In this document: piece by piece, positions 202-64,000 of the stretch
Position numbering within the stretch: the first letter of the stretch is position 1
How the letters are laid out: the number at the start of each line of letters is the position of its first letter
IMG/VR virus record: IMGVR_UViG_3300032213_001637
Location: 45,022-109,021 of that record
From: a virus
Reading direction: 5' to 3' (one strand)
Length of the DNA: 64,000 bases
Position numbers and translations under genes: made by a program
Notes under the pieces: generated by a model
What the model saw: the letters and a program-made list of their open reading frames with translations, nothing else
What the model was told of the DNA's origin: nothing
The model's database searches: none

Positions 202-202
202 T

Positions 203-2166: not shown

Positions 2167-2168
2167 TC

Positions 2169-4521: not shown

Positions 4522-4524
4522 GTT

Positions 4525-6194: not shown

Positions 6195-6197
6195 TTT

Positions 6198-7738: not shown

Positions 7739-8481
7739 TAACGTTGGGAGTTTTAGTTACATGTTATAATGAAGTACGAGCGGTAGAATATTCCTTAACA
7801 TATTTCAGGAAAATATACCGCTCTACAAATATTTACCTTACCACCGAAAGTCACGATTCAGACTACAATAGTTTATTGAATCTAAATAACATTAGTATCA
7901 ATCATGTTGACGATACAATGTATTTTATAAAAGAAGTCACAGATCAGAACTTTTTAGAGCCATATTTTCAAGAAAAAATACTATTTGCAACACGATCATT
8001 CTTAAATCGTGTCAAACAAGCAATTGAATACTGTCAAAGTGATTATTTGTTATTAATGGATCCTGACACCCTTGTTCGTGGACCATTATCAATTCCACAA
8101 GGAGCCAAGTTATTAGGATCTAGAATAAATTGGGGATTGCCTATGGCGTTGAGAACCATATTGACACAAACACCCGGCGCAATTGATATTAACTGTTGGG
8201 GAGCAACTCCAGCAATAATTCATTGTGATACTTTTTTGAAATCATATAAGTATGTGATGGAACAAGATCCAACCTTTTTACCACGTATTGCAAAAACGTT
8301 TTATGCTATTTTTGCACATGACGTAATTCTCCCAATTTTATTTGCATTACAAGGAGAGCAAGAAATATTTAATAGTCAGATTATCGAGTGTGGTCGATAT
8401 CCGTATTGGCAACAAACATCACATCCAATAGTACATCAATTTAAATATTTATATGACAACAATCGTAACATCGTTTATTAA
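7735..8481 (+). CDS. Putative GT-A glycosyltransferase
   Basis: A 248-residue protein with a GT2-like start (LGVLVTCYNEVRAVEYSL). A DPD motif in DYLLLMDPDTLVRGP (about residues 103-117) would be the metal and nucleotide-sugar site. The later part has INCWGATPAIIH and a His/Asp pair (AHDVILP) near residue 200. It has no membrane segment. It is the last gene before a 39-nt gap (8482-8520), so it ends the tightly coupled first half of the operon. Confidence 0.65.
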   Translation: MITLGVLVTCYNEVRAVEYSLTYFRKIYRSTNIYLTTESHDSDYNSLLNLNNISINHVDDTMYFIKEVTDQNFLEPYFQEKILFATRSFLNRVKQAIEYCQSDYLLLMDPDTLVRGPLSIPQGAKLLGSRINWGLPMALRTILTQTPGAIDINCWGATPAIIHCDTFLKSYKYVMEQDPTFLPRIAKTFYAIFAHDVILPILFALQGEQEIFNSQIIECGRYPYWQQTSHPIVHQFKYLYDNNRNIVY

Positions 8482-8520
8482 CGGTATACTACAAATCGGT
8501 GTAAATGTTACATAAAACTT

Positions 8521-9339: not shown

Positions 9340-9362
9340 TATTTACTATTAAAATAATAATT

Positions 9363-10112
9363 ATGACAACAATAGTTACAGCGTTATTTGATATTAACAG
9401 AAAACAATACGGCGACGGACGGTCATTTGAAAAATATTTAGAATGGCTTCCGGAAACATTATCATTATCTTCAAATTATGTTATCTACACTGAAGATAAA
9501 GTTGTACCATATATTCCAAAAAAAGATAACATCAAGGTTATAGTTTCATCATTGGAAGAAGTTCCACTATATCACAAACACGATCAAATTGAATCAATAC
9601 TTAAAAATCCAGAGTATTTAAACAAAATTAAAGATCCTCACCGCGTTGAATGTGTTTTACCGTTATATAACATAATTCAATATTCAAAGTTTGAATGGTT
9701 AAAACGAACAATCAAAGAAAATCCATTCAATTCATCATACTTTTTTTGGATGGACGCTGGGTGTAGTCGTTTTTTTGATAACCTCCCAAACTCTTTTCCC
9801 AATCCAGATAAACTTCCACCCAAGTTTTTGATTCAAGGTAATGCCAATACTAATAGAATTGTTATTGACGATAGTTACAAATGGATGTCAGACTGTGTAT
9901 TGGTAGGCACGTTCTTTGGAGGTCATTACGAATACGTAACCAAGGTTTCTGATCTCACGTTACAGTTCTTACAAGAAGAAATGTTGGATCAAAATATGAT
10001 TAATAACGAACAAATTGCATTAGCTTACATTTGTAAGCGTAATCCATCATTGTTTAATGTATATATACAGTTGAACGGACAACACTTACCCGTGTTAAAA
10101 ATACTTGTATGA
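9363..10112 (+). CDS. HtrL/YibB-like glycosyltransferase
   Basis: A 249-residue protein with the opening TTIVTALFDINRKQYGDGRS and the strongly conserved WMDAGCSRFF at residues 129-138. That is the metal-site motif of the HtrL/YibB/WlaTC-like family associated with LPS or capsule clusters. A second cluster, LVGTFFGGH, lies near residue 180. The family is thought to be a GT-A type transferase; its donor is unsettled. Overlaps the next gene by 4 nt. Confidence 0.8.
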   Translation: MTTIVTALFDINRKQYGDGRSFEKYLEWLPETLSLSSNYVIYTEDKVVPYIPKKDNIKVIVSSLEEVPLYHKHDQIESILKNPEYLNKIKDPHRVECVLPLYNIIQYSKFEWLKRTIKENPFNSSYFFWMDAGCSRFFDNLPNSFPNPDKLPPKFLIQGNANTNRIVIDDSYKWMSDCVLVGTFFGGHYEYVTKVSDLTLQFLQEEMLDQNMINNEQIALAYICKRNPSLFNVYIQLNGQHLPVLKILV

Positions 10113-10729
10113 ACGAAACATTTTTTGCAGAACATAAAGAGGATCAATTTCTTAGATTAAAATACTTTCCTGATTATAGTTACAAAGGTACTTTGGTTGA
10201 AGTCGGTGGAGCAACTCCCGAGTTTATATCTGTATCTCGTCACTTCACATTAAACGAATGGAGAACAGTTATTGTAGAACCAAATCCTACATTTGCTAAA
10301 CAACACCGTGATATTGGAAATGAAATATACGAATATGCACTATCTGACACTGAGGAAGATGATGTTGATTTTACATTGGTACATATCACCGGAGGCAATG
10401 TCACCGATCACGCATTTTCTTCTTTAAAGATTAAAGACTCATATCAGTCAATATCAAATGGATGGGTGAATAAATTAAATAAAACCCAAATTAAAGTTAA
10501 ACAACGTCGTTTGGACACAATAATTAAAGAAGCGAACATCGAACATATAGACATTCTTTCAGTTGATACCGAAGGTTGGGAATTAGAAGTTATGAAAGGA
10601 CTTAGTTTACTTAGACCCAAGGTAATCATGTTGGAAAATCTATTTAATGAAAACTCGTATCGTGAATATATGACCGAAAGAGGTTATAAGTTTGATACAC
10701 GAATTAAAGACTGTGACATTTATCTATGA
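10109..10729 (+). CDS. FkbM family methyltransferase
   Basis: A 206-residue protein. It shows LVEVGGATPEFISVS (SAM loop, about residues 29-43), VIVEPNPTFA (ribose-binding acidic residue, about 53-62), an EYALSDTEE segment, and the FkbM core ILSVDTEGWELEVMKG near residues 149-164, ending in a MLENLF strand. This is a canonical FkbM layout and a clearer member than the other one in this operon. Expected function: O-methylation of a glycosyl residue. It overlaps both neighbours by 4 nt. Confidence 0.85.
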   Translation: MNETFFAEHKEDQFLRLKYFPDYSYKGTLVEVGGATPEFISVSRHFTLNEWRTVIVEPNPTFAKQHRDIGNEIYEYALSDTEEDDVDFTLVHITGGNVTDHAFSSLKIKDSYQSISNGWVNKLNKTQIKVKQRRLDTIIKEANIEHIDILSVDTEGWELEVMKGLSLLRPKVIMLENLFNENSYREYMTERGYKFDTRIKDCDIYL

Positions 10730-11673
10730 AAATTTCAATTATTGGACCCGGAATTATGCCCATACCTCCTAAAGGATGGGGTGCTGTAGAATCTCTGATA
10801 TGGGATTATAATATCGAATTAACCAAACTTGGTTACGATGTGCAAATTGTCAACACACAAAATCGTCAAGAGATTATTAATCAAGTTAATCAATATAATC
10901 CTGACTTTGTACATCTTCAATACGACGACTTGTTTGATGTGTTACCATATATCAAATGTAAACACAAAGCCGCAACTACCCATTATGGCTACCTAGAACA
11001 ACCACATCGTTACGGTGGATATGCTCGAATCTTTGAAGCATTTCTTCGTGGAGACTTTAACATCATCTGTTTATCAGAAGGTATCAAAAACGTATATAAA
11101 AAATATGGTGCCAATGAAAATAGATTGTACATAGTGTGTAACGGTGCAAGACAAGACATGTTCCGATATACCTCCACGCCATCTAAACCCGAAAAGAGCG
11201 TTTATCTCGCTAAAATCACAGATCGAAAACGTCAGTGGATGTATCAAAACATCAATGACATTGACTTTATTGGCAATAAGGACGATAATCGGTTTAATTT
11301 CTCTCGTCCAAACTATATTGGAGAATGGGATAAGCCTACATTGTATGACAATCTAACCAATTATGCCAACTTGGTATTATTGAGTGATGGAGAAGCAGAT
11401 CCACTTGTGACTAAGGAAGCGTTAATTGCGGGTCTTGGAGTGGTTATTTCAGAATGTTCTGTTGCTAATTTGGACTTGTCAAAACCATATATTAGTGTAA
11501 TATCTGAAGATAAAATTTACGATTTAAACTACATTCGTGGCGTTATTGAAACCAACAGACAACAATCGTTGTTACACCGTGATGAAATTCGTCAATATGG
11601 AATTACTAATTTTGCGTGGGAAAACGTTGTGAAACAATATATTAATGTAGTAAATCAAATTATCTCAAAATAA
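10726..11673 (+). CDS. GT4-like glycosyltransferase
   Basis: A 315-residue GT-B enzyme. The N-terminus contains MPIPPKGWGAVESLIWDY (about residues 12-29), the acceptor-side loop shared with the N-terminal domain of the gene at 58617-60713, so the two are paralogues. LSEGIKNVYKKYG near residue 120 and DGEADPLVTKEALIAG near residues 223-238, in the position of the GT4 E-x7-E helix, define the donor domain. It is followed 3 nt later by UDP-galactopyranose mutase. Confidence 0.82.
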   Translation: MKISIIGPGIMPIPPKGWGAVESLIWDYNIELTKLGYDVQIVNTQNRQEIINQVNQYNPDFVHLQYDDLFDVLPYIKCKHKAATTHYGYLEQPHRYGGYARIFEAFLRGDFNIICLSEGIKNVYKKYGANENRLYIVCNGARQDMFRYTSTPSKPEKSVYLAKITDRKRQWMYQNINDIDFIGNKDDNRFNFSRPNYIGEWDKPTLYDNLTNYANLVLLSDGEADPLVTKEALIAGLGVVISECSVANLDLSKPYISVISEDKIYDLNYIRGVIETNRQQSLLHRDEIRQYGITNFAWENVVKQYINVVNQIISK

Positions 11674-11676
11674 GTT

Positions 11677-12762
11677 ATGTACGATTATTTAATTGTAGGC
11701 AGTGGTATGTTTGGATCAGTGTGTGCAAGAGAACTCACTGATAAAGGTTACAAGTGTTTGGTGATTGAAAAACGCAATCATATTGGTGGCAATTGTTATA
11801 CTGAAAACAAAGATGGTATTAACATTCACAAGTATGGCGCTCACATATTTCACACATCCAATAAAGAGATTTGGGATTATATCAATAAGTTTGCGAAGTT
11901 TAATAACTTTGTAAATCATGTCAAGGTCAATTATAACGGTCAAATTTATTCTTTTCCGGTTAACATGATGACACTGCATCAAATCTATGGAGTAACCACA
12001 CCAGAACAAGCAAAAAAGAAACTAGATGAAGTTCGTATTCACAATGAAAATCCAAAGAACTTAGAAGAGTGGATACTATCGCAAGTAGGAAAAGAAATAT
12101 ACGAAATATTCATCAAAGGATATACCACAAAACAATGGGGAAGACATCCCGTAGATTTACCATCTTCCATTATTAAACGTCTTCCTATTCGATTTACCTA
12201 CGATGATAGTTACTATGGACTTGACTATCAAGGTGTTCCTATCGGTGGTTACACTCAAATATTTGAAAAGTTATTGGATGGAATCGAAGTACGGTTGAAT
12301 GAGGACTATCTTCAAAACAAAGAGTCACTTAACAATGTCGCTAAAAAAGTTATTTATACCGGTTCAATTGATGCATACTATAACTACTGTTTTGGAAACT
12401 TGAACTACAGAAGTCTAAAGTTTGAAACTGAACGAATTGAAATACCGGATTATCAAGGAAACGCAGTTGTCAACTATACAGAACTTCATGTTCCATTTAC
12501 CCGAATTCTTGAACATAAACATTTTGATCCTGTTAATACAAACTTCACCTATATTACACGTGAATATCCAAGAGAATATGGTGAAGGACTTGAACCATAT
12601 TATCCTATAAATGATAAAGTTAATACACCAATATATGAGAAGTATAAAACATTAACTGAAAAAGAATCGAATGTTATATTTGGTGGTCGGTTGGCTGAAT
12701 ATAGATACTATGATATGCATCAAGTGATTGGTTCCGCATTACACACCTGTAAAAAACTATGA
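11677..12762 (+). CDS. glf: UDP-galactopyranose mutase
   Basis: A 361-residue flavoenzyme that isomerises UDP-galactopyranose to UDP-galactofuranose. The FAD-binding Rossmann motif is at the N-terminus (IVGSGMFGSVCAREL, then LVIEKRNHIGGNCY). The family-specific KYGAHIFHTSNKEIWDYI stretch follows at about residues 49-66, with further conserved YTTKQWGRHP near 149-158 and FGGRLAEYRYYDMH towards the C-terminus. The length is typical. It implies that at least one glycosyltransferase in this operon uses UDP-Galf. It overlaps the next gene by 4 nt. Confidence 0.95.
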   Translation: MYDYLIVGSGMFGSVCARELTDKGYKCLVIEKRNHIGGNCYTENKDGINIHKYGAHIFHTSNKEIWDYINKFAKFNNFVNHVKVNYNGQIYSFPVNMMTLHQIYGVTTPEQAKKKLDEVRIHNENPKNLEEWILSQVGKEIYEIFIKGYTTKQWGRHPVDLPSSIIKRLPIRFTYDDSYYGLDYQGVPIGGYTQIFEKLLDGIEVRLNEDYLQNKESLNNVAKKVIYTGSIDAYYNYCFGNLNYRSLKFETERIEIPDYQGNAVVNYTELHVPFTRILEHKHFDPVNTNFTYITREYPREYGEGLEPYYPINDKVNTPIYEKYKTLTEKESNVIFGGRLAEYRYYDMHQVIGSALHTCKKL

Positions 12763-13664
12763 AAATACAAATTGTTACACACCTTCTTCCCCACGAATTA
12801 GATGAATTTGAACGTCAATTGACCGTATTGAGTCAAGAAATGATTGATTGTCATGAAGTTACCTTGGATGTTACATTGAATTTGAACACAGTTGATTGGA
12901 ACAAAACAAAAATTCCAAAGGATTTCTTTATTGAGAAGTTCGAATCATTGTCAAAGTACGTTACTCATACCAGTTGGGCAAGAAACTACATCTTTGATGT
13001 AGATGACCATGGTACTTGTAGAGGGATCAACGACAAACGTCGTAATAGCATACGTAAATACGGTAAAGATGTAGACGCATTTATATACTTGGATTCAGAC
13101 TTGGTATTTCCTCCAGCAACTTTGTCATATTCGATACACTGTGCTACTCAGGTAAAGAACAAATATTATATTATTTCACCTCAAATCACCAAAATTTGGG
13201 ATCAAACATGGGACCATTTGGTAAATCATCAGTTCATTAACAACAAATATGGAAGTGAAAAGACGATCAATCCATATTTTGAAGTCAACCGTAAATCATA
13301 TTTGAATCACATCAATCTTATCAAATGTGATCCTACCAAATTTGGTGGTGGATGGTTCAATTTAATTAGTTCCAACCTATTAACATTTACAGATATACCC
13401 GATGCACTTGGACCCTATGGCGTTGATGATACCTATGTTATGTTCGCGGCTCAAATCATGAAAGTCAATAATATTGATTTCCAACAATATTTAATGGAAC
13501 ACATTATTGTAGCTGAGAACTATTTATTGAGACACAATTCATACAAAGATTACATAACCTATTTCGAAGACAGAAACAACTTCAAAAGCAAGGCGGAGGC
13601 ATCATTAGGCGACTGCCTAAGAGACTTTGTTAACAAAAACCAATACACATTCAAACATCTATGA
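12759..13664 (+). CDS. Putative GT-A glycosyltransferase
   Basis: A 301-residue protein. The best motif is FIYLDSDLVFPPATLSYS near residues 108-125, where the DSD would bind the divalent metal and the nucleotide-sugar. Further on are GGGWFNLISSNLL and GPYGVDDTYVMFAAQ, whose acidic DD pair is at the place of the catalytic base in many GT-A enzymes. Placement right after UDP-galactopyranose mutase makes a galactofuranosyl or similar transfer conceivable, but nothing in the sequence proves it. Confidence 0.65.
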   Translation: MKIQIVTHLLPHELDEFERQLTVLSQEMIDCHEVTLDVTLNLNTVDWNKTKIPKDFFIEKFESLSKYVTHTSWARNYIFDVDDHGTCRGINDKRRNSIRKYGKDVDAFIYLDSDLVFPPATLSYSIHCATQVKNKYYIISPQITKIWDQTWDHLVNHQFINNKYGSEKTINPYFEVNRKSYLNHINLIKCDPTKFGGGWFNLISSNLLTFTDIPDALGPYGVDDTYVMFAAQIMKVNNIDFQQYLMEHIIVAENYLLRHNSYKDYITYFEDRNNFKSKAEASLGDCLRDFVNKNQYTFKHL

Positions 13665-14014
13665 TAAACCTGATAAACATACTAAATACTACATTTATTG
13701 GAGTTGCATTTTTGGTTGTGTGGTTTCATACAGAAGCGTTTCTTGAATACAGTGGTTTGTTTAAAATGAAACGTCTTTTTAAAATAGATGAATTTGAAAA
13801 AGCACAAGAAAACGATTTCAGTTTAGAATACTTACAGTGGATAAAACAAACCTATCCAAACTTCTTCACTAAACTTGTCAATTGCCCGTGGTGTATTGGG
13901 TTTTGGTTTACCGTATTATCTTCATGGATTTTCTCCACGTTTTACATATTTCCCGTAACTTATGTGTTTACACTTGTTATATATTTACTTATCGTAAATA
14001 AGTTTTTTAAATAA
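13661..14014 (+). CDS. Small membrane protein with CPWC motif
   Basis: A 117-residue protein with three hydrophobic stretches: about residues 8-22, 78-95 (IGFWFTVLSSWIFSTFYIF) and 96-114. The CPWCIGFW motif at about residues 73-80 precedes the second one. A Cys-x-x-Cys followed by Gly/Ser-Phe-Trp at a membrane boundary is typical of the small DUF1360-like membrane proteins; that link is tentative. It overlaps the preceding glycosyltransferase stop by 4 nt and may anchor glycan-related steps to the inner membrane. Confidence 0.6.
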   Translation: MINLINILNTTFIGVAFLVVWFHTEAFLEYSGLFKMKRLFKIDEFEKAQENDFSLEYLQWIKQTYPNFFTKLVNCPWCIGFWFTVLSSWIFSTFYIFPVTYVFTLVIYLLIVNKFFK

Positions 14015-14015
14015 T

Positions 14016-14309
14016 ATGATACTGGTTCAAAACTTCACCGAATTTTACAACATATTAAAAACGCACAATGGAATACCCAATTCAGTTTCTAAACTGAAAG
14101 AGTATGTATTATTGGTAGAACGTTTTAAAAATACGTGCAGTTGTAGAGGTACCGAAAAACAACGTGTAAAAAACGAGTGTGAATCCCAATACCGATTATT
14201 GGTTATAACCGAAGTTAGTAACCATATCAATCTATTCAAAAACTCTTTGGGTGATGGTAACATTAAATTTATTCAAAATAATGTTATCATCCAAGAGTTT
14301 AATGTTTGA
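14016..14309 (+). CDS. Hypothetical protein
   Basis: A 97-residue mostly helical protein with no recognised family. It has one CSC pair (about residues 43-45) and a charged middle (CRGTEKQRVKNECESQYRL). It is the last gene of the plus-strand operon, starts 1 nt after the membrane-protein stop, and its TGA at 14307-14309 directly abuts the stop codon of the convergent rmlB gene with no spacer. Confidence 0.5.
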   Translation: MILVQNFTEFYNILKTHNGIPNSVSKLKEYVLLVERFKNTCSCRGTEKQRVKNECESQYRLLVITEVSNHINLFKNSLGDGNIKFIQNNVIIQEFNV

Positions 14310-15272
14310 TTATAGATAACTTTCAATAGTTGTCTTTAAAGCGTTTGAAAAGTCTGTAAGGTTCATTTGTCCAAACTTCTGTTCATAATCAAAGGTCTCA
14401 ATCGAATAACGCAAGTCATGTCCCTTGCGATCTTCTACATAGTTGATATAATCATAGTCGATCTTAGTGTTAGTAACATCTTCATAAACAGATTTAATAT
14501 GTTCAATCAACTCAAGATTGGTTAATTCATTCTTTCCGCCAATCAAATACTGACTTCCTACATCCCCAGTTTCAAGAACGTCCCAAATACAGTTAACGTG
14601 ATCTTTTACATAAATCCAATCACGTACATTTTGACCAGTTCCATATACAGGAATTGGTTCACGGTTTTTCAACTTACGAATACAAGTTGGAATTAACTTT
14701 TCACCATTTTGTCTTGGTCCAAAATTATTGCTACAATTAGTAATGATAGCAGGTAACTTATATGTCTTAACATAACTACGTACAAGTAAGTCACTTGCAG
14801 CCTTTGTGGCAGAATATGGACTGTTGGGTCGATATGGACTATCTACAGTAAATGAAGACTCCTTTGCATTCAATGATCCATACACTTCATCAGTGGATAT
14901 ATGAATAAACTTCTCTACCTTTCCATAATCATATATCGCTTTAATCAAATTAAATGTTCCCAAAACATTGGTGGTAACAAACGGATCGGGAGAATAAATT
15001 GAATTATCAACATGAGTTTCTGCGGCAAAGTTTACTACATGAGTAATCTCAAACTTATTCAACGTCTGCCACAGAATAACACCATCGTTAATATCCGCAA
15101 CATAATGTTTATATCGTGGATCAACATTAAACTGTAAATTCTTATTGGCAGCATATGTTAACTTATCAAAGTTAATGATATTGTCAATATCAGGATTGTT
15201 CAATAACTTCTCTACAAAATGTGATCCTATAAAACCACATCCACCTGTGACTAAAACGTTTTTCTTATTCAT
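14310..15272 (-). CDS. rmlB: dTDP-glucose 4,6-dehydratase
   Basis: A 320-residue extended short-chain dehydrogenase that converts dTDP-glucose to dTDP-4-keto-6-deoxyglucose. Seen: the NAD-binding glycine loop TGGCGFIGSHF at residues 9-19, the HISTDEVYG active-site segment at about 124-132 (Thr, Asp, Glu catalytic set), the YSATK Tyr/Lys pair at 153/157, and NNFGPRQ plus GTGQNVRDWIYV in the substrate domain. It is slightly shorter than bacterial RmlB (about 350). The start overlaps the C-methyltransferase stop by 4 nt. It is part of a four-gene dTDP-sugar operon with rmlA upstream. Confidence 0.93.
   Translation of the reverse strand: MNKKNVLVTGGCGFIGSHFVEKLLNNPDIDNIINFDKLTYAANKNLQFNVDPRYKHYVADINDGVILWQTLNKFEITHVVNFAAETHVDNSIYSPDPFVTTNVLGTFNLIKAIYDYGKVEKFIHISTDEVYGSLNAKESSFTVDSPYRPNSPYSATKAASDLLVRSYVKTYKLPAIITNCSNNFGPRQNGEKLIPTCIRKLKNREPIPVYGTGQNVRDWIYVKDHVNCIWDVLETGDVGSQYLIGGKNELTNLELIEHIKSVYEDVTNTKIDYDYINYVEDRKGHDLRYSIETFDYEQKFGQMNLTDFSNALKTTIESYL
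14314..14335 (+). terminator. Weak hairpin at the convergent junction
   Basis: An 8-bp stem (AGATAACT / AGTTGTCT, one G-U pair) with a 6-nt loop lies within the last codons of rmlB. On the plus strand it is followed by CTTTAAA. It is the only structure near the point where the plus and minus operons meet and could end plus-strand transcription, but the T-run is very short. Confidence 0.3.
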
Positions 15273-16528
15273 ATAATTTCAAATGTGGGACACGGAACAA
15301 TAAAATGACCACCAGCCATCAAATACGGTGCTTCTCTCCTCTTGAATTCATCAATAAAATGCCAAGGCAAAATCAAAAGATAATCTGGTCTAGCCTTTCT
15401 CATTTCATTTTCAGAATATATAGGAATGTCAGTGCCAACTGTTCTTAGTCCAAATTTATATGGACTACGTTCAGCCGCACCATCAATCAACCGTTTATCC
15501 AATCCAAAGTACTGTAATAATGTATTTCCCTTAGTAGATGCTCCGTATACCCAAATCTTTTTACCTTTCAACTTCTCTTGTTTGATGAAGTTATACGTTT
15601 TAATCTTCAACTCTTGAAGTTTCTTATAGAAATCCATGTAAAATTCAATAGTGTTTGCACCAATCTTGTTTTCATATTCCAAAATAGAGTTTACACGATA
15701 ACGAGCGACATCACGATATGGCGCAGTAGCGAAAGAAGTAACCTTAGCGACATCTTTCTGTAGATATACTCTAAATGATCCACCGTTAACATCATTCAAC
15801 TCACAATCAACAATTTTAAACTTGGCTCTATCAGCAACATGTTTAAATGAATGTAATGAATAGTACATTAAATGTTCATGACAAATGTTATCAAATGCCA
15901 TTTGTTGAATCATCAACGGAGTATAACTCATTTGAACCACAAACATTCCTTCATCACCCAACACGTCATAAATCTCATTCATGAACGCAACTGGGTCAGG
16001 CAAGTCATAGAACATCGCAATACATGTGATTACGTCACACTTACGTCCTTTAAAAATACTTCGATCAAATGCGTCCTTAGAGAAGTAGTCTTGAATTACC
16101 TGATCAGCAAACTTAACACTCTCTTTGGTATATGAATCATCCGCTGGATCAATTCCTAGACGAGCATATGGTGTGGGAACATAGTTCAACAACGTTCCAT
16201 CGTTACACGCAATATCCAACCATAACGGAGTATCACATGGAATGTGCACATTGATACAACTATCAACCACGTTTTTAAGTTGATTACGCATGGTTTGATT
16301 AGTACCAGAACGATACCAATACTGACCATACATTTTGTTTGGATCGGCGCCCTGTTCTAACTGTACCAACTTTGATGTCGGTGAAAACATCAACTTCATT
16401 TCAGACTTATAATCGTCAGATGGTTGTTTTTTTACAAAGTTTGAAATGAACAAATTACCCAACGTAAACAACGGAGTTAATGTATCATTTGATACCCGAC
16501 AATTTGTAACTTTTTCAGTATATTTCAT
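15269..16528 (-). CDS. Sugar C-methyltransferase (NDP-hexose 3-C-methyltransferase type)
   Basis: A 419-residue protein with the three-part architecture of NDP-hexose C-methyltransferases. The N-terminal domain would normally bind zinc; here most Cys of that site are missing, with only Cys10 evident. The SAM-binding domain has LDIACNDGTLL at about residues 104-114 and the family signature FDNICHEHLMYYSL at about 212-225. The C-terminal Rossmann domain shows IWVYGASTKGNTLL near residue 330. These enzymes add a branching methyl to a 4-keto sugar nucleotide, which fits the flanking RmlB and reductase. Which carbon is methylated cannot be read from sequence. Confidence 0.85.
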   Translation of the reverse strand: MKYTEKVTNCRVSNDTLTPLFTLGNLFISNFVKKQPSDDYKSEMKLMFSPTSKLVQLEQGADPNKMYGQYWYRSGTNQTMRNQLKNVVDSCINVHIPCDTPLWLDIACNDGTLLNYVPTPYARLGIDPADDSYTKESVKFADQVIQDYFSKDAFDRSIFKGRKCDVITCIAMFYDLPDPVAFMNEIYDVLGDEGMFVVQMSYTPLMIQQMAFDNICHEHLMYYSLHSFKHVADRAKFKIVDCELNDVNGGSFRVYLQKDVAKVTSFATAPYRDVARYRVNSILEYENKIGANTIEFYMDFYKKLQELKIKTYNFIKQEKLKGKKIWVYGASTKGNTLLQYFGLDKRLIDGAAERSPYKFGLRTVGTDIPIYSENEMRKARPDYLLILPWHFIDEFKRREAPYLMAGGHFIVPCPTFEII

Positions 16529-16529
16529 A

Positions 16530-17390
16530 TTATTTCCAGTTCTCTAAACAGTAATCTAATGCTTCATCTACAGTTCTCATTTTAATTCCAGTTGATAACA
16601 ATTTTTGATTGTTCATAACACAGTTGGAACGTGGTGTTTTTGCGGCTGTGGTATAAAACGATTCTTCATTATCAAAAAATTCGAAGACTTTATCTTTAGC
16701 AATAGTCTTTTGCATTTTTTCAATAACTTGTTTTGTAGTTATAAATCCAGTATTAGTAACGTTGTAAATACCATACGGTACATCTCGCGTAATAGTTTCA
16801 ATACAAGCACGTACAAACTCTTGTTTATTAGATATAGAATTTTCAGCATCTAATAGTTTTTTATAATTCAACATTTTGGATAGATAATTACGAGGATTGT
16901 CAATATCTTCAAATGGAATTCTCAATCGCCAAATATAATGTTTAGGAGAATTCTTTATGATGATATTTTCCGCCATAGCCTTTGTTCCACTATAAAAGCT
17001 ACAATTGTTTTGTTCAAAACTGAAATTGGGAGGATCAAATTCGGTAAACGGACTTCCATCACTACGCCGTCCAGTATAAATACACCCACTTGACACATGT
17101 GCAAACGTAATATTATTGTTTCCACAAAACGTTGACAATATAGTAGGTAGTACAACATTACCATAAATGGTGTTATGTTTATCAGTTTCACACGCATCTA
17201 CATTTGGTTTGCCAGTGTATCCAGCACAATTAATGATTGCAGTTAACTTTAACGATTTGTGTAGAAGTTGTAATTGTGTGTATGTAATGTCCCTAGAAGG
17301 AATATGTGTACGAGTTGGAATTCCTTTTTGAAATAGTTGTTTATAAAACTCTTTTCCAACATAACCATTTGAACCTAATAATAAAATCAT
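16530..17390 (-). CDS. RmlD-like dTDP-4-keto-sugar reductase (SDR)
   Basis: A 286-residue extended SDR with LLGSNGYVGKEF (NAD(P)-binding loop, residues 4-15), INCAGYTGKPNVDACE (about 53-68, the RmlD-type substrate/cofactor strand), VSSGCIYTG (about 99-107) and YSGTK with catalytic Tyr133 and Lys137. It would reduce the 4-keto group of the dTDP-sugar after RmlB and the C-methyltransferase. A 3,5-epimerase (RmlC) is absent from the module, so the product need not be rhamnose-like. It starts 15 nt downstream of the rmlA stop. Confidence 0.82.
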   Translation of the reverse strand: MILLLGSNGYVGKEFYKQLFQKGIPTRTHIPSRDITYTQLQLLHKSLKLTAIINCAGYTGKPNVDACETDKHNTIYGNVVLPTILSTFCGNNNITFAHVSSGCIYTGRRSDGSPFTEFDPPNFSFEQNNCSFYSGTKAMAENIIIKNSPKHYIWRLRIPFEDIDNPRNYLSKMLNYKKLLDAENSISNKQEFVRACIETITRDVPYGIYNVTNTGFITTKQVIEKMQKTIAKDKVFEFFDNEESFYTTAAKTPRSNCVMNNQKLLSTGIKMRTVDEALDYCLENWK

Positions 17391-17405
17391 AACCGGGAAT
17401 ATATA

Positions 17406-18245
17406 TCAAAGAATAGATTCCAAATAATTTCTATATTCGGATTTTGGTGTTTTTTCAATTATAATTTTGTATTGATCCACATTGATAAAGCCATTGTTTA
17501 AACAATCTTCTTCAATACAAGCAATTTTGATACCCTGACGTTCCTGAATAGTTTGAACATAACTACTAGCTTGTGCTAATGTAGTTGGTGTTCCAGCGTC
17601 CAACCATACAGATCCACGTTTCATTAACGTGGCATACAACTCATTTCTTTCCAAAAACACTTTGTTTACGTCAGTGATTTCCAATTCACCTCTAGCAGAT
17701 GGTTTTAACTTTTTAGCAATACCAACCACCGCATTATCATAAAAATATAAACCCGGAACCGCATATTTACTCTTAGGAACCTCTGGTTTTTCTTCTATTG
17801 ACTTTACTCGTCCATCATAAGAAAACTCAACCACACCATAATCCCGTGGGTTTGTTACTGAATATGCAAAGATTTGTGCCGGTGAAAACAACGTATCAAC
17901 CAAGGTTCCAAAAATAATGTTATCACCCAATATCAAAGATACACAATCCTTCTTAATAAAATCTTCAGCGATCAAAAATGATTGAGCAATACCTTTTGGT
18001 TGTGGTTGTACACCATATACAATCTTTAATCCCAAATGTTTTCCATTTCCAAATAACGCCTTGTACTCAGGAATCCATTTGGGCGTAGATATAATCATGA
18101 TTTCTCGGATTCCTTTGTTAATCAATGTTGACAAAGGATAATAAATCATGGGTTTATCAAATACAGGCAACAACTGTTTGTTACATGTACATGTAAGTGG
18201 ATATAACCTACTACCAGTTCCACCAGATAAAATAATGCCTTTCAT
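17406..18245 (-). CDS. rmlA: Glucose-1-phosphate thymidylyltransferase
   Basis: A 279-residue nucleotidyltransferase that makes dTDP-glucose from dTTP and glucose-1-phosphate. Seen: the pyrophosphorylase signature GIILSGGTGSRLYPLT at residues 3-18, KQLLPVFDKPMIYYPLS shortly after, ISTPKW, the LILGDN metal site near 104-109, EEKP near 152, and WLDAGT near 215-220. Length is near the family norm of about 290. It overlaps the upstream dNMP-kinase-like gene by 4 nt. Confidence 0.95.
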   Translation of the reverse strand: MKGIILSGGTGSRLYPLTCTCNKQLLPVFDKPMIYYPLSTLINKGIREIMIISTPKWIPEYKALFGNGKHLGLKIVYGVQPQPKGIAQSFLIAEDFIKKDCVSLILGDNIIFGTLVDTLFSPAQIFAYSVTNPRDYGVVEFSYDGRVKSIEEKPEVPKSKYAVPGLYFYDNAVVGIAKKLKPSARGELEITDVNKVFLERNELYATLMKRGSVWLDAGTPTTLAQASSYVQTIQERQGIKIACIEEDCLNNGFINVDQYKIIIEKTPKSEYRNYLESIL

Positions 18246-54419: not shown

Positions 54420-57400
54420 TTAAGCACCGAAGGATGCACCCGTAGGCAAGATGTTGAAATCAAGAATGATAAATTCAGCAGTCTTGGTTGGTTGTAGAAA
54501 AATCTGTCCATATAAGATATTTCTATCAATCAAGTCAGGGGTGTTGTTGGTCTCGTCCATCTTAACTTGGAAAGCGTACAAACCACTACGTGATTGTACT
54601 TGTTCAAGATAAGGATTGACGATACTCAAGAAACGATTACGTGTATTTGCCACGTTCTGTTCGAATACCAAGAAACGTGAACTTGAAGCAATGAACTTCT
54701 TCAAGTTGATCATCAAACGACGAACGTTAATACGATCCAATGCGCTTGGTGCGATTTGAAGAGTCTTTTGACCCCATACACAGATTCCCTGACCGGGGAA
54801 TGCTGCAATTGGGTTAACACGACCTTCATATAGTGTATCACGTTCACCGTGTGTCAAACGATCCAACACTTGAACGGCTTGGGTAATACCACCACGGTTC
54901 AAACCGGCTGGAGCAAACCATTCAGCAGAAGACTTATCGTTTGCGGCGTAAATGGCAGGCAGAACAACAGATGGAGGTACACTAATAATCTTGTTCATGT
55001 TGGTATCAAGAATCTTGACCCATGGATAGTACGTAGCAGCGTAACTGCTATCGATTGTATTGGCAACGTTAATTGCCGCGTCAATCAATCCAGTGCTTTG
55101 ATTGCTCTTAGGAAACACCACGTTATCCATGATGTAGAAACAATCACCACGTGCTTCACACATATCAATTGTCAACTGTGCCACATAACTGTGGTGTTGA
55201 TAAAAGATACCCGGAGTGACGATCAAGTTAATATCGAACTCGTCAGCATTACCCAACGCACCGATACACTGTCTGTAAGCAACACTGCCTGGACTTGTAA
55301 TGTTAGTACAATTCAAACCTTGAGTATTGCCTGGAATGATATCAGATCCAACGTTAATTGGAATTGCTGGTGATTGACCATCAAATCCGCCTTGGAAGCC
55401 AAATACGAACTTACGCATCTTCACACGGGTTGATTCGTATGCAGCGTCATAAGTTGATGGAACACCACCACTATCGTTTTGAACGTCTGGTTGTTTAGAA
55501 CCAGTTAGATTGTGTGTATCACCGGTTTCAAGATCGAATACAACGTTATTGCCAATTGAAGTGAAACCTTCATAAGCAGGTAACGGAGCGAAGTATTGAA
55601 GATTGTCGTTATGTACGCTATATACACCCACAGATGATGTAGGATACAATGACAACAAATCGTCTGCTGCACCCACTGGGGGTTCACCAAACACGATACC
55701 AGATGGATATTTACCCGGAGCCGTTGAGTAAGTTGAAGCGCGGGTGAATTGTACTGGTGGCAAGAATCCGCCAACGTTACCACCGATTGGTGTAGCAAGA
55801 GCGTCAAATCCATAAGGAATTACGGCTTCTGGATACACATTTTCAGTCATTTCAATACGAACATACTTACTCAAGTTAGCATAAGTACCGAATTCAATGA
55901 TCTTACCGGAGAAAGCAATGTAGTTGTAACGATCACCAATACGGCGAGCGATAAAGTTACTGCTATCTGGATCAAGATTCAAGTTTTGGAAACGTTCCAA
56001 GTACTTAGGATTCTTATCAGTATCACTAAATCTACGTACACTCAATGTGAATGAACCATAGTCACTTCCAGCAACAGTACCAGCAAGTTTTACGTCACTG
56101 ATTTCAACCTTGTAGGATGTGTTCGTATTGGTTCCGTCAGCGAGTGTGTGTAGACGAAATAGTGGGAAACGTTGTGGGCGAGCTGTTATATCAGATGTAC
56201 CAGTAAATGGTGCAACTTGTTGTGAGTTAACCCATGGTGTTGTTGCCCACTTCAAACTAAAGTCACTGTAACCAGTTGTTGGTGTGTAACCAAAGTCATC
56301 GGTAAGCTTCAATGGATTACCATTGAATTGAACTTTATTCTCAGCACCAACTGGAGTATATGGAGCTTCACTTCCTACAATCTTCCAACCGTCAGACGGA
56401 TCAGTTGATTCTTCTGCGATACGAGCAATCGTATCCTTGAAGATATTGTAGAGATATGCAGCTTCAATCTTTTGACCAGCAACTTGTTTTGCCGGATCAC
56501 CAGCGGTTGGATCAGATCCAAACACATTGGTGATATAGTTTGAACTTGCTGGATCCAATGATAATTCATAGATTCCATAACTTCCACTTGAACCACCGAT
56601 GTTATAACGCAAATCAAGAACATAGTCTTGTGCGGTTGGATCTTCACTACCACTATACAAACCAGAGGTTGCAATCTTCTTGCTCAACACCGAACCCTCG
56701 AAACCATATACAACTTGTGACAACTTGTTGTTAGCATCAGATTGAATGGTTGCATTTTGGGTATTAGCAAGAACTGCAAGTACAACTGCTTCACGAGCAG
56801 CGCCTGGATTACAAGGATCTCCACCAGAAACAACAGTTTCAGTGAATGTGGTGAACTTACCAAAACTACCAGTAATGTTACAGGTCAATTGAATTTGAAC
56901 ACCGCAACTATTCGTTGGACGATACTTGGCAAAATTGATACTGTTAATGATAACAGAAGATGCATCACCAGATACTGGGAAGTCATCACTCAACTTAACC
57001 AAACTGCTTGTGGTTGCTAAACTACCCGATAATTTACCACTTTGTTCAGCAAGAGCACGCAACAACTTGGCTTCAGCGCTGATTGTCAAGTCACCTTGAT
57101 AACTGGAGCTAATTTCAAATGAAGCGGCATTAAACGTAAGATTCACATCACCGATATAACGAGTGGTGTATGTCTTGTTACCAGATGTGCCTGGTGGGTT
57201 ATATGTTGAGAATGAACTGGTTTCGAAGTTTGCGTACAAACTACCGGTAACAGTCAATATCTCAGTACCAGCACTTGAACTAACGTATTGTACGTTAACT
57301 GTAATATCATCTGGATCAAGTGCGATATATGATGAATCCGCAGTTCCCAACGCGGTAAATGAACCACTTTGTGTTGCGCGGTTATAATATCCCGGAATAG

Positions 57401-57728
57401 CGTAGATAACAAACGGACTATCTTGTTTATATCCGGTTAAAGCACCTACACGACAAATGGTAACTAGACCTTGTTCTTGTAGATACTGTTTGGCTGTGTA
57501 TGGGCCGTAATATACGCCGTCCGATACACCGAATTTTTCTTCTAACTCAGCTACGCTGGTGACAATCGTTGGAGCAAACCCCGGTCCCTTTGGAAAGGGA
57601 GCGACAATGGCCCCACCGATATCAGAAACGCCCTGAGCAAGTCCTGATAGATCGTTTTCACGACTGAAAACGCCTGGACTCACAATTTTATCATGTGGGG
57701 TAAATGTTCCCCCTTCTGTAATTGGCAT
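54420..57728 (-). CDS. 18: Tail sheath protein (gp18-like), unusually long
   Basis: A 1102-residue contractile sheath protein. The N-terminus shows the sheath pattern KIVSPGVFSRENDLSGLAQG, then GGAIVAPFPKGP and a YLQEQGLVTICRVGALTGY stretch. The conserved C-terminal assembly domain has AAFPGQGICVWGQKTLQ, LDRINVRRLMINLKKFI, RFLVFEQNVANTRNRF and a QVKMDETNN end. T4 gp18 is 659 residues, so about 400 residues are inserted, mostly beta-rich and Ser/Thr/Gly-rich (about 100-600), probably surface domains. GAAAGGAAAT precedes the start. Upstream is a 95-nt AT-rich gap with a hairpin. Confidence 0.92.
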   Translation of the reverse strand: MPITEGGTFTPHDKIVSPGVFSRENDLSGLAQGVSDIGGAIVAPFPKGPGFAPTIVTSVAELEEKFGVSDGVYYGPYTAKQYLQEQGLVTICRVGALTGYKQDSPFVIYAIPGYYNRATQSGSFTALGTADSSYIALDPDDITVNVQYVSSSAGTEILTVTGSLYANFETSSFSTYNPPGTSGNKTYTTRYIGDVNLTFNAASFEISSSYQGDLTISAEAKLLRALAEQSGKLSGSLATTSSLVKLSDDFPVSGDASSVIINSINFAKYRPTNSCGVQIQLTCNITGSFGKFTTFTETVVSGGDPCNPGAAREAVVLAVLANTQNATIQSDANNKLSQVVYGFEGSVLSKKIATSGLYSGSEDPTAQDYVLDLRYNIGGSSGSYGIYELSLDPASSNYITNVFGSDPTAGDPAKQVAGQKIEAAYLYNIFKDTIARIAEESTDPSDGWKIVGSEAPYTPVGAENKVQFNGNPLKLTDDFGYTPTTGYSDFSLKWATTPWVNSQQVAPFTGTSDITARPQRFPLFRLHTLADGTNTNTSYKVEISDVKLAGTVAGSDYGSFTLSVRRFSDTDKNPKYLERFQNLNLDPDSSNFIARRIGDRYNYIAFSGKIIEFGTYANLSKYVRIEMTENVYPEAVIPYGFDALATPIGGNVGGFLPPVQFTRASTYSTAPGKYPSGIVFGEPPVGAADDLLSLYPTSSVGVYSVHNDNLQYFAPLPAYEGFTSIGNNVVFDLETGDTHNLTGSKQPDVQNDSGGVPSTYDAAYESTRVKMRKFVFGFQGGFDGQSPAIPINVGSDIIPGNTQGLNCTNITSPGSVAYRQCIGALGNADEFDINLIVTPGIFYQHHSYVAQLTIDMCEARGDCFYIMDNVVFPKSNQSTGLIDAAINVANTIDSSYAATYYPWVKILDTNMNKIISVPPSVVLPAIYAANDKSSAEWFAPAGLNRGGITQAVQVLDRLTHGERDTLYEGRVNPIAAFPGQGICVWGQKTLQIAPSALDRINVRRLMINLKKFIASSSRFLVFEQNVANTRNRFLSIVNPYLEQVQSRSGLYAFQVKMDETNNTPDLIDRNILYGQIFLQPTKTAEFIILDFNILPTGASFGA

Positions 57729-57823: not shown

Positions 57824-58639
57824 TTATATTTTAAGACTATTTTTTAGTGTGTAATTTATTGCATTAATCACATCTGCATCACTTATGGTATATGTACACT
57901 CATGTTGTCTATATGTTCCTTTGTAATGTGGACACCATATATCTTCCCATTTTATTTCTAAGTTATTATCGTTATAACAGCCAAAACAAATACTATCATC
58001 TGATGGACCCAACCGAACAATATTACTATTAAACTCAAAATAACGCTTGGTATGACCACTTATCATGATCACAGGTACACCCAAACACCATGCCAACCAC
58101 GCTAATCCGGAACTAACACCTATATAAACAGAAGAACTATATATCAAATCACACACTTGCAACAGATCCAAACCAGTACAATCAGTGACATTTGATAATA
58201 AAGTTGGTTCATTCGATATTGCAATTGGATCGTATCCTATAGTTTTAACATATTGCGTCGTCTTAAACCATCCAATAGGATTATTCCACGATTTACAATA
58301 GTTACTTCCATATTCAGAAAAAGTAATCGTTTTACCCGGCGTCTTTTTAAGTTTGGATAGATTAAACCTCGGACGTTGTTCAACATAATCAACCCCCAAT
58401 GCGTGCGCAGATGACCATTGTAGAGGTTTTTCACGATCAAACACATCAATTACTATCTTCTTGTCATAAGAAGACGGTATTTCAAATTTCAGGTTAGGAT
58501 AAGAGTCCGCAAATAAATTTTTATAATAAAAGTTTGTATAGACATCCCAACCGTATTTCTCTCTTGCAATATCAATATAAGGCAACCACGCAATGCCGTC
58601 ACCCAATTGGTTGCTTTCAAGATGTACGTATACTTTCAT
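57824..58639 (-). CDS. Autotransporter-heptosyltransferase-like protein (GT9/BAHT-type)
   Basis: A 271-residue protein. The N-terminus NQLGDGIAWLPYIDIAREKYG (residues 10-30) and the donor-domain YIGVSSGLAWLAWCLGVPV (about 172-190) plus SGHT are of the heptosyltransferase (GT9) type. The C-terminus has Cys218-x2-Cys221, Cys236-Pro and Cys248, the arrangement of the iron-binding cysteines of bacterial autotransporter heptosyltransferases (TibC-like), which glycosylate serines of surface proteins. It overlaps the next gene by 23 nt. The phage target may be a virion protein; this is inferred. Confidence 0.78.
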   Translation of the reverse strand: MKVYVHLESNQLGDGIAWLPYIDIAREKYGWDVYTNFYYKNLFADSYPNLKFEIPSSYDKKIVIDVFDREKPLQWSSAHALGVDYVEQRPRFNLSKLKKTPGKTITFSEYGSNYCKSWNNPIGWFKTTQYVKTIGYDPIAISNEPTLLSNVTDCTGLDLLQVCDLIYSSSVYIGVSSGLAWLAWCLGVPVIMISGHTKRYFEFNSNIVRLGPSDDSICFGCYNDNNLEIKWEDIWCPHYKGTYRQHECTYTISDADVINAINYTLKNSLKI

Positions 58640-60713
58640 CTATAATAAGTTTGTTGATCGTATCAATAACCATTTGAGAACTAATTTCTTTGGAACACTC
58701 AAATTGACGTGGCGTACCTTTTTGACGAGGACACCAGTTCCAATCACCACGATCAAAATCATGTTCATTCCAACAACCGTTACACACATTGGTATTGATA
58801 ACACGATACGGCGTGAAAAATTCGCTACGAGGTAAACTAAAACCACTCACCAATATCGTATGCTTTTTAATTGCCCAAGATAACCATGACAAACCAGACC
58901 CAATGCCAATGAAAAACTCACAATTATACAATAAATTTATAGTTTCCTGTATATCCTTGTCTCCAGACAAATTTATAATATTGTTAAACCGATCTTCCTT
59001 TTCAGCTTGAATCAATACCGGCTTCAAACCAATACTGTTCAAATAATCACACGTTTCCTGCCAACCAGTAGGATTGTTCCAATACTTGGCTTGAGCCGTT
59101 GATTGTGTTGCAAAACAAACATACTTTTGTTCAATTTTCCTATCGGTATTCTTAATTACAATATTAGGTTTAATCTCTTTGTGATTTATACCCAATATAG
59201 ACGATGATAAACGTTGTAAAGATACATCCTTGTAATTAAACAATGAACGATGGGTATCCGGATAACACCCAACTATATAAATAGCATAAAAATTGCCACT
59301 CCACTGTAATCCACAAAACTTAAGGTCCGGATAGTTATCTTGAAATAATGATGACCAATTCGTAGCACATGTAACATTACATCCGTGTTTTTTTCTAAAC
59401 TCTTCCACATACGGAAACCACGCAATACAATCTCCCAACGATTTAGTATCCAAACAAATTAAAACCTCTTTGTTCTTCAAATTAAGTTTTTGATCCAATA
59501 TTAACTTCGAATCCACGTTAACCTTGATACGATATGGCACATAACGTTTGATCAAACATTTTGACCACTCGTTCGTTTTCATCGTGCCACTATACAAACT
59601 ATCATCGGTGTCATCATCAATAAAATCAAAACTATAACGAGTATCAACATTACCACCGGTAATGGACAAATGTGCACCATCAGTATAGTTAATCTCGATC
59701 TTAGCACCTTGCATTTGTTTATCGACACGTTTGGTCGAATCATAAATTTCATTTAACTCATTTGTCATACGATATTCATCAATCTTTCGATATTCTCTAA
59801 CCAAATCATCTACAACATGATTCCAATCGTTGGTTGTTGCATATTTAAACCCCTCTTTACACAATATACGATAATCGTTCATCGCCTTACAAACACCATC
59901 ATATACAGATTCGACATTTCTTTCGATCTTCACCATTCCCGGCAAACTATCACTATCATATGTTGATACCACAGGTAAACCACATGACAACGCTTCTATC
60001 AATGTCAAATTCGGATGACCTGCTTCAACAGAAGATGGATGTAGAAAAATAGTGTGATCTTGATACACCTTTAATAAGGCATCTTCATTTAAATCGTACA
60101 AGAAAGTCAACTTGTCATACGGTTTAAAATCTTTGTTCTTTTCAAAAAATTCTTTGTTTGCAATTGGTCCCGCAACTGTAATTTCCAAATTAAGTTTTCT
60201 TGCAGCTTCAATCGCATACACAAAACCCTTACGATCAAATGACATATCTTCAGCCAAACCATTTCGACCAATACACAATAGTTTATGTTGTTTATTAGAC
60301 GGATCTCCCGGTTTAAAAAATGATGTATTTGTACCGTGACGCAAATACTTCACACGACGACTGTCAAAATATGAAACCAAATGTTTAGCAGGAACAAATG
60401 ATAAAACAGACTTTTCAATTGCTTCCCGGTTTTGATTATATAAATTTGAACTGTTACCATACACCTCAGTATGATGATCGTGCATTGTAAACACATACGG
60501 AATACCACGTTCGTGGGCTATAATTCCAAGATTGGCAACATGAATATGAACAATGTCATAATCTTCTTTGCGAACATCATCAAGATACTTGATATCACAT
60601 GTATGTCCCAATCGTTCCAACGACTGTTTATATTCCCAAATAATCTTTTCAACTGCACCCCACCCATTCGGAGGAATAGAAATTAATCCCGGTGTAACAT
60701 GACAAATTTTCAT
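58617..60713 (-). CDS. Two-domain glycosyltransferase: GT4-like plus autotransporter-heptosyltransferase-like
   Basis: A 698-residue fusion. Residues 1-330 are GT4-like: SIPPNGWGAVEKIIWEYKQS near 13-32 (shared with the gene at 10726-11673), LLCIGRNGLAEDMSFDRKGF near 145-164, and HPSSVEAGHPNLTLIEALSC near 225-244 with the E-x7-E helix. A linker of about 90 residues leads to a GT9-like domain with SLGDCIAWFPYVEEFRKKHG near 427-446, FFIGIGSGLSWLSWAI, and a Cys644-x2-Cys647, Cys661-Pro, Cys673 site like that of the neighbouring gene. It probably builds two consecutive linkages. Confidence 0.82.
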   Translation of the reverse strand: MKICHVTPGLISIPPNGWGAVEKIIWEYKQSLERLGHTCDIKYLDDVRKEDYDIVHIHVANLGIIAHERGIPYVFTMHDHHTEVYGNSSNLYNQNREAIEKSVLSFVPAKHLVSYFDSRRVKYLRHGTNTSFFKPGDPSNKQHKLLCIGRNGLAEDMSFDRKGFVYAIEAARKLNLEITVAGPIANKEFFEKNKDFKPYDKLTFLYDLNEDALLKVYQDHTIFLHPSSVEAGHPNLTLIEALSCGLPVVSTYDSDSLPGMVKIERNVESVYDGVCKAMNDYRILCKEGFKYATTNDWNHVVDDLVREYRKIDEYRMTNELNEIYDSTKRVDKQMQGAKIEINYTDGAHLSITGGNVDTRYSFDFIDDDTDDSLYSGTMKTNEWSKCLIKRYVPYRIKVNVDSKLILDQKLNLKNKEVLICLDTKSLGDCIAWFPYVEEFRKKHGCNVTCATNWSSLFQDNYPDLKFCGLQWSGNFYAIYIVGCYPDTHRSLFNYKDVSLQRLSSSILGINHKEIKPNIVIKNTDRKIEQKYVCFATQSTAQAKYWNNPTGWQETCDYLNSIGLKPVLIQAEKEDRFNNIINLSGDKDIQETINLLYNCEFFIGIGSGLSWLSWAIKKHTILVSGFSLPRSEFFTPYRVINTNVCNGCWNEHDFDRGDWNWCPRQKGTPRQFECSKEISSQMVIDTINKLIIDESIRTS

Positions 60714-63139: not shown

Positions 63140-64000
63140 TTATTTTATTTTTTCCATCAATTCTTTAACCTGTTTCTCCAAAATAGTCACTCTCTCATTC
63201 AATTCCTTGAACGCATTGATCGTTACCCATTGAAGTTTCTCAGAATTAACCCAGTAATACCTTTGTGGTCCACTGTCATTTGGATGTGCTTTTTGTTCAA
63301 ATGTAGTCACAATTTCAGGAAAATCATTCATTACATCTTGAGCCACTATACCATATGACACAACTTCATCTGACATCTTGTTATTGCCAAGAACGTTGTA
63401 TTCAAATGATACAGGATTCAATTTCAACAAATCATCCAACCCCTTAGTCAACGGACGTATGTTCTTCTTCAAACGACGATCCGATGTACCACCACCCGCC
63501 GCACCTTGCGCACCTTGTGAACCAGTTGAACCAGTTAAACCTTTGACACCACTCGTTCCAGCTGCGCCTTGAGCACCTTGAGAACCTGTCCCCGGTACAC
63601 CTTGAAAACCTTGAGCGCCTTGTGCACCTTGAGAACCTGTCCCCGGTACCCCTTGAAAACCTTGTGCACCTTGTGCACCTTGTGCGCCTTGAGCACCTTG
63701 TGCGCCTTGAGCACCTTGTACACCTGATGAACCAGATGCACCTTGTGCGCCCTGTGCGCCCTGTGCACCACCACCACCTTGTGAACCTTGCGCACCTTGG
63801 ACACCTGATGAACCTCCAGCACCTTGTGCGCCCTGAGCACCTTGTGCGCCTTGAAAACCTTGAGCGCCTTGTGCGCCCTGAGCACCTTGTGCGCCTGATG
63901 TGCCAGATGAACCCGCCGCACCTTGTGCGCCCTGAGCACCTTGTGCGCCTTGAAAACCTTGAGCGCCTTGTGCGCCCTGAGCACCTTGTGCGCCTGATGT
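63140..64000 (-). CDS. Collagen-like tail fibre with C-terminal S74-type chaperone domain (5' end outside window)
   Basis: The frame is open from the right edge to the stop at 63140-63142. From the edge to about 63500 it encodes uninterrupted Gly-x-y triplets, mainly GAQ with GFQ, GSQ, GTS and GSS units: a collagen-like triple-helical shaft. The last 115 residues start with SDRRLKKNIRPL, the autocleavage/chaperone signature of the S74 (endosialidase-type) intramolecular chaperone, followed by YGIVAQDV and a terminal coiled coil (LNERVTILEKQVKELMEKIK). It is thus the distal end of a trimeric fibre. Only the C-terminal part is in the window. Confidence 0.9.
   Translation of the reverse strand, partial: TSGAQGAQGAQGAQGFQGAQGAQGAQGAAGSSGTSGAQGAQGAQGAQGFQGAQGAQGAQGAGGSSGVQGAQGSQGGGGAQGAQGAQGASGSSGVQGAQGAQGAQGAQGAQGAQGFQGVPGTGSQGAQGAQGFQGVPGTGSQGAQGAAGTSGVKGLTGSTGSQGAQGAAGGGTSDRRLKKNIRPLTKGLDDLLKLNPVSFEYNVLGNNKMSDEVVSYGIVAQDVMNDFPEIVTTFEQKAHPNDSGPQRYYWVNSEKLQWVTINAFKELNERVTILEKQVKELMEKIK
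63580..64000 (-). repeat. Tandem repeats encoding collagen-like Gly-x-y units
   Basis: Imperfect 9-bp units (Gly-Ala-Gln codons) are arranged in larger repeats. The most obvious has a 99-bp period: the segments ending near 63900 and near 63999 are nearly identical over at least 55 bp. A shorter repeat with CCTGTCCCCGGTAC occurs twice around 63585-63655. The region continues past the window. Confidence 0.8.

Follow-up and report, generated by a model that had tools for sequence, protein, structure and literature searches.

Background

The closest described relatives of the proteins reported here are TibC and AAH, the bacterial autotransporter O-heptosyltransferases (BAHT; PDB entries 4RAP and 4RB4), which belong to NCBIfam TIGR04414 and have the strand-loop-strand autotransporter repeat TIGR04415 as their known target. 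In TibC, iron is bound by Cys339/342/358/370, Arg286 hydrogen-bonds the adenine of ADP-heptose and is required for activity, an N-terminal beta-barrel is likewise needed for activity, and a beta-hairpin thumb (Phe265, Val266) joins dimers into a dodecamer ring (PMC4358343). Burkholderia BimC is a BAHT relative that has the iron finger and is encoded beside its partner protein, in this case the autotransporter BimA; according to the passage of PMC6439308 that cites Lu et al., B. thailandensis BimC binds iron and BimA but is without transferase activity. The lipopolysaccharide (LPS) heptosyltransferases WaaC and WaaF (GT9) share a distant GT-B fold with the proteins described here (TMq 0.46-0.54), but have neither the four-Cys finger nor the barrel, and their acceptor is a glycolipid.

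Phage glycosyltransferases have generally been interpreted as acting on DNA or LPS (PMC7029224, PMC10202952). A precedent for glycans on virion proteins is provided by mycobacteriophages (Freeman et al. 2023, cited in PMC12619734), although the part of PMC12619734 dealing with this work names capsid and tail-tube C termini as the modified sites and does not mention a collagen-like fibre. No report linking TibC-type enzymes with phages or with collagen-like proteins was found in the open-access literature, which leaves out most subscription journals.

Organisation of the locus

The window, meaning the whole stretch of DNA analysed, comprises the final 64 kb of a 109-kb viral contig. A preliminary description, made from the sequence alone, had located two ORFs with four-cysteine sites next to a tail sheath gene; both are confirmed there, on the minus strand, as part of a module of three overlapping genes lying between a fibre gene and the sheath gene. 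The features of this region are:

63140..64000, minus strand: C-terminal part of a collagen-like Gly-X-Y fibre, mostly GAQ, with a Peptidase_S74 chaperone domain at its end; runs off the contig end
60710..63115, minus strand: 801-aa protein with an N-terminal GT4 domain (PF13692/PF00534 over cut-off) and a conserved region without a recognised fold
58617-60713, minus strand: 698-aa protein, with the ORF as placed in the preliminary description
59739..60713, minus strand: N-terminal half of the 698-aa protein, a GT4 glycosyltransferase domain (PF00534 40.4 bits, PF13692 36.7 bits, both above cut-off)
58617..59738, minus strand: C-terminal half of the 698-aa protein (residues 326-698), a TibC/AAH-type (BAHT) domain by TIGR04414, best PDB match (TibC) and fold
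58695..58784, minus strand: putative iron finger of the 698-aa protein, Cys644-x2-Cys647...Trp-Cys661-Pro...Glu-Cys673, by alignment to TibC C339/342/358/370
57824..58639, minus strand: 271-aa paralogue, consisting of the TibC-type catalytic domain plus the four-Cys finger, with no N-terminal barrel, by TIGR04414, 4RAP match and AlphaFold
57896..57988, minus strand: four-Cys site of the 271-aa protein, Cys218-x2-Cys221...Cys236-Pro...Cys248, by alignment to TibC
54420..57728, minus strand: tail sheath, 1102 aa (PF04984, PF17482, PHROG 23)

Transcription would run from the end of the fibre gene through the genes for the 801-aa, 698-aa and 271-aa proteins to the tail sheath. The 801-aa and 698-aa genes overlap by 4 bp and the 698-aa and 271-aa genes by 23 bp, while the sheath gene starts 95 bp downstream of the 271-aa gene. 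A relative of the 801-aa protein is found near the module in most related viral neighbourhoods; residues 325-801 of this protein had no match in a PDB sequence search. The fibre had previously been called Ser/Thr/Gly-rich, a label that does not suit the part within the window, which is mainly Gly-Ala-Gln, with 9-21% Ser+Thr in its GXY runs.

Elsewhere in the window, a run of glycosyltransferase-like and FkbM-like genes extends from 191 to 18245. These genes are enough to build and modify an oligosaccharide, and include:

11677-12762: UDP-galactopyranose mutase
14310-15272: RmlB
17406-18245: RmlA

Family, fold and active site

The C-terminal half of the 698-aa protein matches TIGR04414 over the full domain at 331.7 bits (E 5e-99), and the 271-aa protein matches model positions 84-372 at 148.6 bits (E 2e-43). 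Given the curated cut-off of 200 bits, the family threshold is passed by the former and missed by the latter. As TibC (4RAP/4RB4) also provides the sole PDB sequence matches for both (E 3e-70 for the 698-aa protein, 4e-26 for the 271-aa protein), their resemblance to TibC is, judged by these sequence scores, not due to chance. Structure prediction and comparison with TibC, a check named beforehand, likewise revealed a TibC-like fold: the AlphaFold models of the 698-aa C-terminal half (pLDDT 94) and of the 271-aa protein (pLDDT 85) have TMq values to 4RAP of 0.88 and 0.84-0.86 respectively. The former comprises an N-terminal barrel, a GT9-like GT-B catalytic domain and the four-Cys finger, and is by sequence and predicted structure a full-length TibC/AAH-type domain; the latter, from which the barrel (TIGR04414 model positions 1-83) is absent, is by the same measures a shorter paralogue.

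The iron-cysteine arrangement of TibC-like enzymes, recognised earlier in both proteins, is borne out by alignment. The motifs CFGC, WCP and HEC in the 271-aa protein, and CNGC, WCP and FEC in the 698-aa C-terminal half, place all four cysteines opposite the iron ligands of TibC. This motif occurs in essentially all viral relatives, some short paralogues having a WxYCP variant, and in 40 aligned viral sequences the four Cys, the catalytic Asp and the Lys contacting the donor phosphate are invariant. Asp110, Lys230, Trp305 and the four cysteines (TibC numbering) are kept in every sequence compared, and the position of Thr226 is held by Thr in the 698-aa protein and by Ser in the 271-aa protein.

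The phage gene differs from those of TibC and AAH in being fused to a GT4 domain, in having lost Arg286 and in having a shortened or absent thumb. The position of Arg286 is occupied by Thr in the 698-aa protein and by Val in the 271-aa protein; in the alignment, Arg is found there in 26/26 canonical, 9/27 phage and 2/12 collagen-linked bacterial sequences. Both window proteins lack the aligned thumb residues Phe265/Val266, with no clear hairpin in the AlphaFold model. Because the ADP-contacting Arg and the dodecamer thumb are missing, a heptose donor and ring assembly appear doubtful for the window proteins, and these losses argue against a plain copy of the ADP-heptose chemistry and ring of TibC; a dimer is predicted instead. 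A scan of the sugar-nucleotide genes recognised none belonging to the ADP-heptose pathway; elsewhere the contig was read by eye only. A 142-aa nucleotidyltransferase, the only candidate for such a gene, was rejected, as it fits glycerol-3-phosphate cytidylyltransferase better (102 vs 70 bits, both below cut-off). Of the original designation 'heptosyltransferase', the fold and active site stand, whereas the heptose chemistry is doubtful on these two counts.

Distribution and descent

Relatives of the 698-aa protein are encoded by 260 viral stretches, and tblastn identified them in uncultured phages of 735 kb and 636 kb as well as in Microcystis phage Mel-JY01. Rarer than these is the 271-aa paralogue, with 5 close loci; two other groups have a similar short paralogue beside the long one. 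Of the 30 representative loci of at least 14 kb, 14 have the sheath gene next to the module, as does the window. Among 80 sheath relatives, the enzyme is nearby in 24, and no such enzyme is present in the surrounding DNA searched for the other 56; hence the module is a variable cassette at the sheath site.

In a 66-row tree, the canonical autotransporter-linked enzymes including TibC (22 rows) form one side of a 100/100 branch. Opposite them are all the phage sequences, along with the collagen-linked bacterial sequences at two distinct positions. Unlike TibC and AAH, therefore, the 698-aa protein is outside the canonical clade, as is the 271-aa protein in a quick tree. A contig from the Chloroflexi MAG NAT137 (L561), without the autotransporter repeat, groups with the phages in the tree, and both the 801-aa protein and the GT4-BAHT fusion have relatives on it. 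It is probably phage DNA that was binned with a bacterial genome. Two Bacteroidota MAG contigs (L510 and L512) have identical TibC-type domains in ORFs of ~780 aa; no autotransporter repeat was found in these genomes, and no collagen tract at these loci.

Association with Gly-Thr-Ser fibres in phages

Relatives of the window locus have very long Gly-Thr-Ser collagen-like fibres beside the module, with ~600 Gly-Thr-Ser triplets at the site of the window's fibre in one of them (L009). The association was quantified with viral contigs chosen only by DNA pattern, 50 for each of Gly-Thr-(Ser/Thr), Gly-Pro-x and an arbitrary 15-mer (random). TIGR04414 is present in 18/50, 1/50 and 0/50 of these contigs respectively (p 1.4e-5 for Gly-Thr-Ser against Gly-Pro-x, p 1e-6 against random), the random set consisting of shorter contigs and the contigs within a set possibly being related to each other. 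Contig size was considered as the cause of this link and rejected: the difference between the Gly-Thr-Ser and Gly-Pro-x sets survives length cuts, the family being present in 12/16 against 1/15 of the contigs of at least 60 kb. General richness in glycosyltransferases was also rejected, as GT4 is only mildly enriched (19/50 Gly-Thr-Ser vs 9/50 Gly-Pro-x, p 0.04) and nearly always shares its contig with the TibC-type domain, which accompanies it in 17/19 GT4-bearing contigs of the Gly-Thr-Ser set vs 1/9 of the Gly-Pro-x set.

A Gly-Thr-Ser tract lies within ~10 kb of the domain in 12 of the 18 enzyme-bearing contigs. Among contigs with the enzyme, some long but incomplete ones (G012, G025 and G049) show no Ser/Thr collagen tract in the parts read, and three others have one far from the module. 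No Gly-Thr-Ser tract is present in the flanks covered for sheath relatives without the enzyme (0/37) or for random loci (0/41). The named phages Mel-JY01 and LR756501 both have such tracts 4-5 kb from the domain. This statistical link to Ser/Thr-rich collagen-like proteins is a further difference from TibC and AAH. It is a link by association, and the tracts might reflect how these phages live instead of pointing to a substrate.

In Mel-JY01 (PP395634.1, L625:1-2300), the Gly-Thr/Ser collagen-like frame is on the plus strand, and the record annotates a hypothetical protein over it on the minus strand (739-2298), which is probably a wrong-strand call. Loci with an adjoining fibre of the GAQ type (the window, L008 and L010) have the 271-aa paralogue; the pure Gly-Thr-Ser relatives L009 and L011 do not, and L012, which has mixed triplets, does. 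On these few loci, the paralogue may serve another type of triplet.

Bacterial pairs of enzyme and Gly-Thr-Ser protein

Among the best 80 bacterial relatives, three have a Gly-Thr-Ser tract adjoining the enzyme: those of a Methylobacter, an Arenicellales MAG and a gammaproteobacterial MAG. In all three the enzyme is stand-alone and the tract lies within a small protein whose N terminus, by eye, is signal-peptide-like or lipoprotein-like, the latter applying to the partners in the Arenicellales and the other gammaproteobacterium. The neighbours at the Methylobacter and gammaproteobacterial loci are cellular genes; at the former (L564), the Gly-Thr-Ser protein is encoded at 8905-9786 and the enzyme at about 9827-11125. 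A wider gammaproteobacterial search with the Arenicellales enzyme returned only the genome already known and Methylobacter.

The order of Methylobacter, the Methylococcales, was represented by 301 genomes, which contain 15 enzymes above the TIGR04414 cut-off. Six are canonical, at ~650 bits; none of these adjoins a Gly-Thr-Ser protein, and the two loci for which the flanks were read (L593 and L595) adjoin autotransporter-type repeats. The other nine, including that of Methylobacter, are non-canonical, at 303-327 bits. In eight of them the gene for an exported-type Gly-Thr-Ser protein is 3-115 bp from that of the enzyme, in tandem or tail-to-tail orientation, while the ninth adjoins a relative with a poly-Ser tract. 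The difference between 8/9 and 0/6 has a p value of 0.0014, the nine forming one clade and hence not representing nine independent events. Pfam Collagen is matched by the Methylobacter partner and by all four other partner proteins scanned.

Proposed function and alternatives

The TIGR04415 repeat is found in 26 of the 30 bacterial genomes with the enzyme. By contrast, the same search detected it neither in the window's own contig nor in any of 50 related viral records, and an autotransporter-type repeat was rejected on this basis as the target in the phage. The module probably represents an operon of O-glycosyltransferases that act on a virion protein, with the collagen-like fibre as the acceptor. 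In the host cytoplasm, the TibC-type domains would add the first sugar to Ser/Thr hydroxyls of the fibre's Gly-X-Y tracts, using a GT-B fold with an Asp (TibC D110) as the base, and the fused GT4 domain and the GT4 of the 801-aa protein would then extend the glycan. The fold, active-site residues, four-Cys finger, gene order and statistical link are observed, whereas we infer enzymatic activity, acceptor, chain extension and the metal of the finger; that the substrate is a virion protein is well supported indirectly. The Gly-Ala-Gln-rich make-up of the fibre part within the window, with its low Ser/Thr content, counts against the fibre as acceptor, as do the long enzyme-bearing contigs in which no tract was seen. 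Glycosylation of a collagen-like protein is itself familiar from BclA of Bacillus anthracis, which carries O-glycans on Thr of its Gly-X-Y tracts, although the enzymes are unrelated.

The 1102-aa tail sheath is the foremost other virion protein that the module might glycosylate. It adjoins the module in the window and in almost half of the representative loci, and the enzyme is near 24 of the 80 sheath relatives; yet the other 56 are without it, and the link to collagen is observed both in the absence of a sheath and in bacteria without any phage gene, making the sheath an unlikely target. On the statistics of the collagen link and the sheath relatives without the enzyme, the fibre is the better candidate acceptor. 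The earlier suggestion of protein glycosyltransferases acting on the virion was therefore right in kind, with the statistics pointing to the fibre and disfavouring the sheath. Modification of a host surface glycan (LPS or capsule), for example to exclude other phages, is also rather unlikely. The sugar cluster at 191-18245, with its RmlA, RmlB and UDP-galactopyranose mutase, could take part in such a process, which is the usual interpretation of such genes in myophages (PMC7029224). However, protein Ser is the acceptor of the closest enzymes characterised (PMC4358343), the domain carries the protein-recognition four-Cys finger and barrel of those enzymes, and its genes are associated with fibre genes and not with glycosyltransferases at large.

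The fold alone is no proof of catalysis, because BimC is reported in the relevant passage of PMC6439308 to be without transferase activity. The domains could similarly lack activity and function as chaperones or localisation factors that bind iron, which is the role proposed for BimC, and the replacement in both window proteins of the Arg286 needed for TibC activity is in keeping with this. Such a role nevertheless seems very unlikely, given that every sequence compared retains the catalytic Asp, the Lys at the donor phosphate and Trp305, even where divergence is deep, and alongside fused GT4 domains.

The finding that this branch of TIGR04414 goes with Gly-Thr/Ser collagen-like proteins is new here. 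It can tentatively be extended to the whole superfamily, which could have a second, largely phage-borne half, with Gly-Thr/Ser collagen-like tracts of phage fibres and methanotroph exported proteins as acceptors, an altered donor specificity and no dodecamer ring. The autotransporter enzymes of enteric pathogens would then be one branch of a wider family modifying low-complexity Ser/Thr proteins. For the phages, the fibre would be a specific acceptor, open to experiment, for glycosyltransferases of a class that is commonly dismissed as modifying DNA or host LPS. Its glycosylation might also explain how long collagen-like fibres remain soluble or evade proteases and host defences. The simple two-gene bacterial pairs, and the named, host-assigned phage Mel-JY01, represent direct test systems.

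Two further adjoining genes are found in L004 (contig 28-32 kb), at L004:9482-10387 and L004:10384-12921. One product is an 845-aa protein with GT4 and DUF5672; the other, of 301 aa, looks by eye like a GT9 protein with a Cys-x2-Cys and has no Pfam or NCBIfam match. In the relative L009, a gene just downstream of the sheath (L009:15750-17537), absent from the window, codes for 595 aa, contains Cys-pair motifs as well as internal repeats, and looks like a mobile endonuclease.
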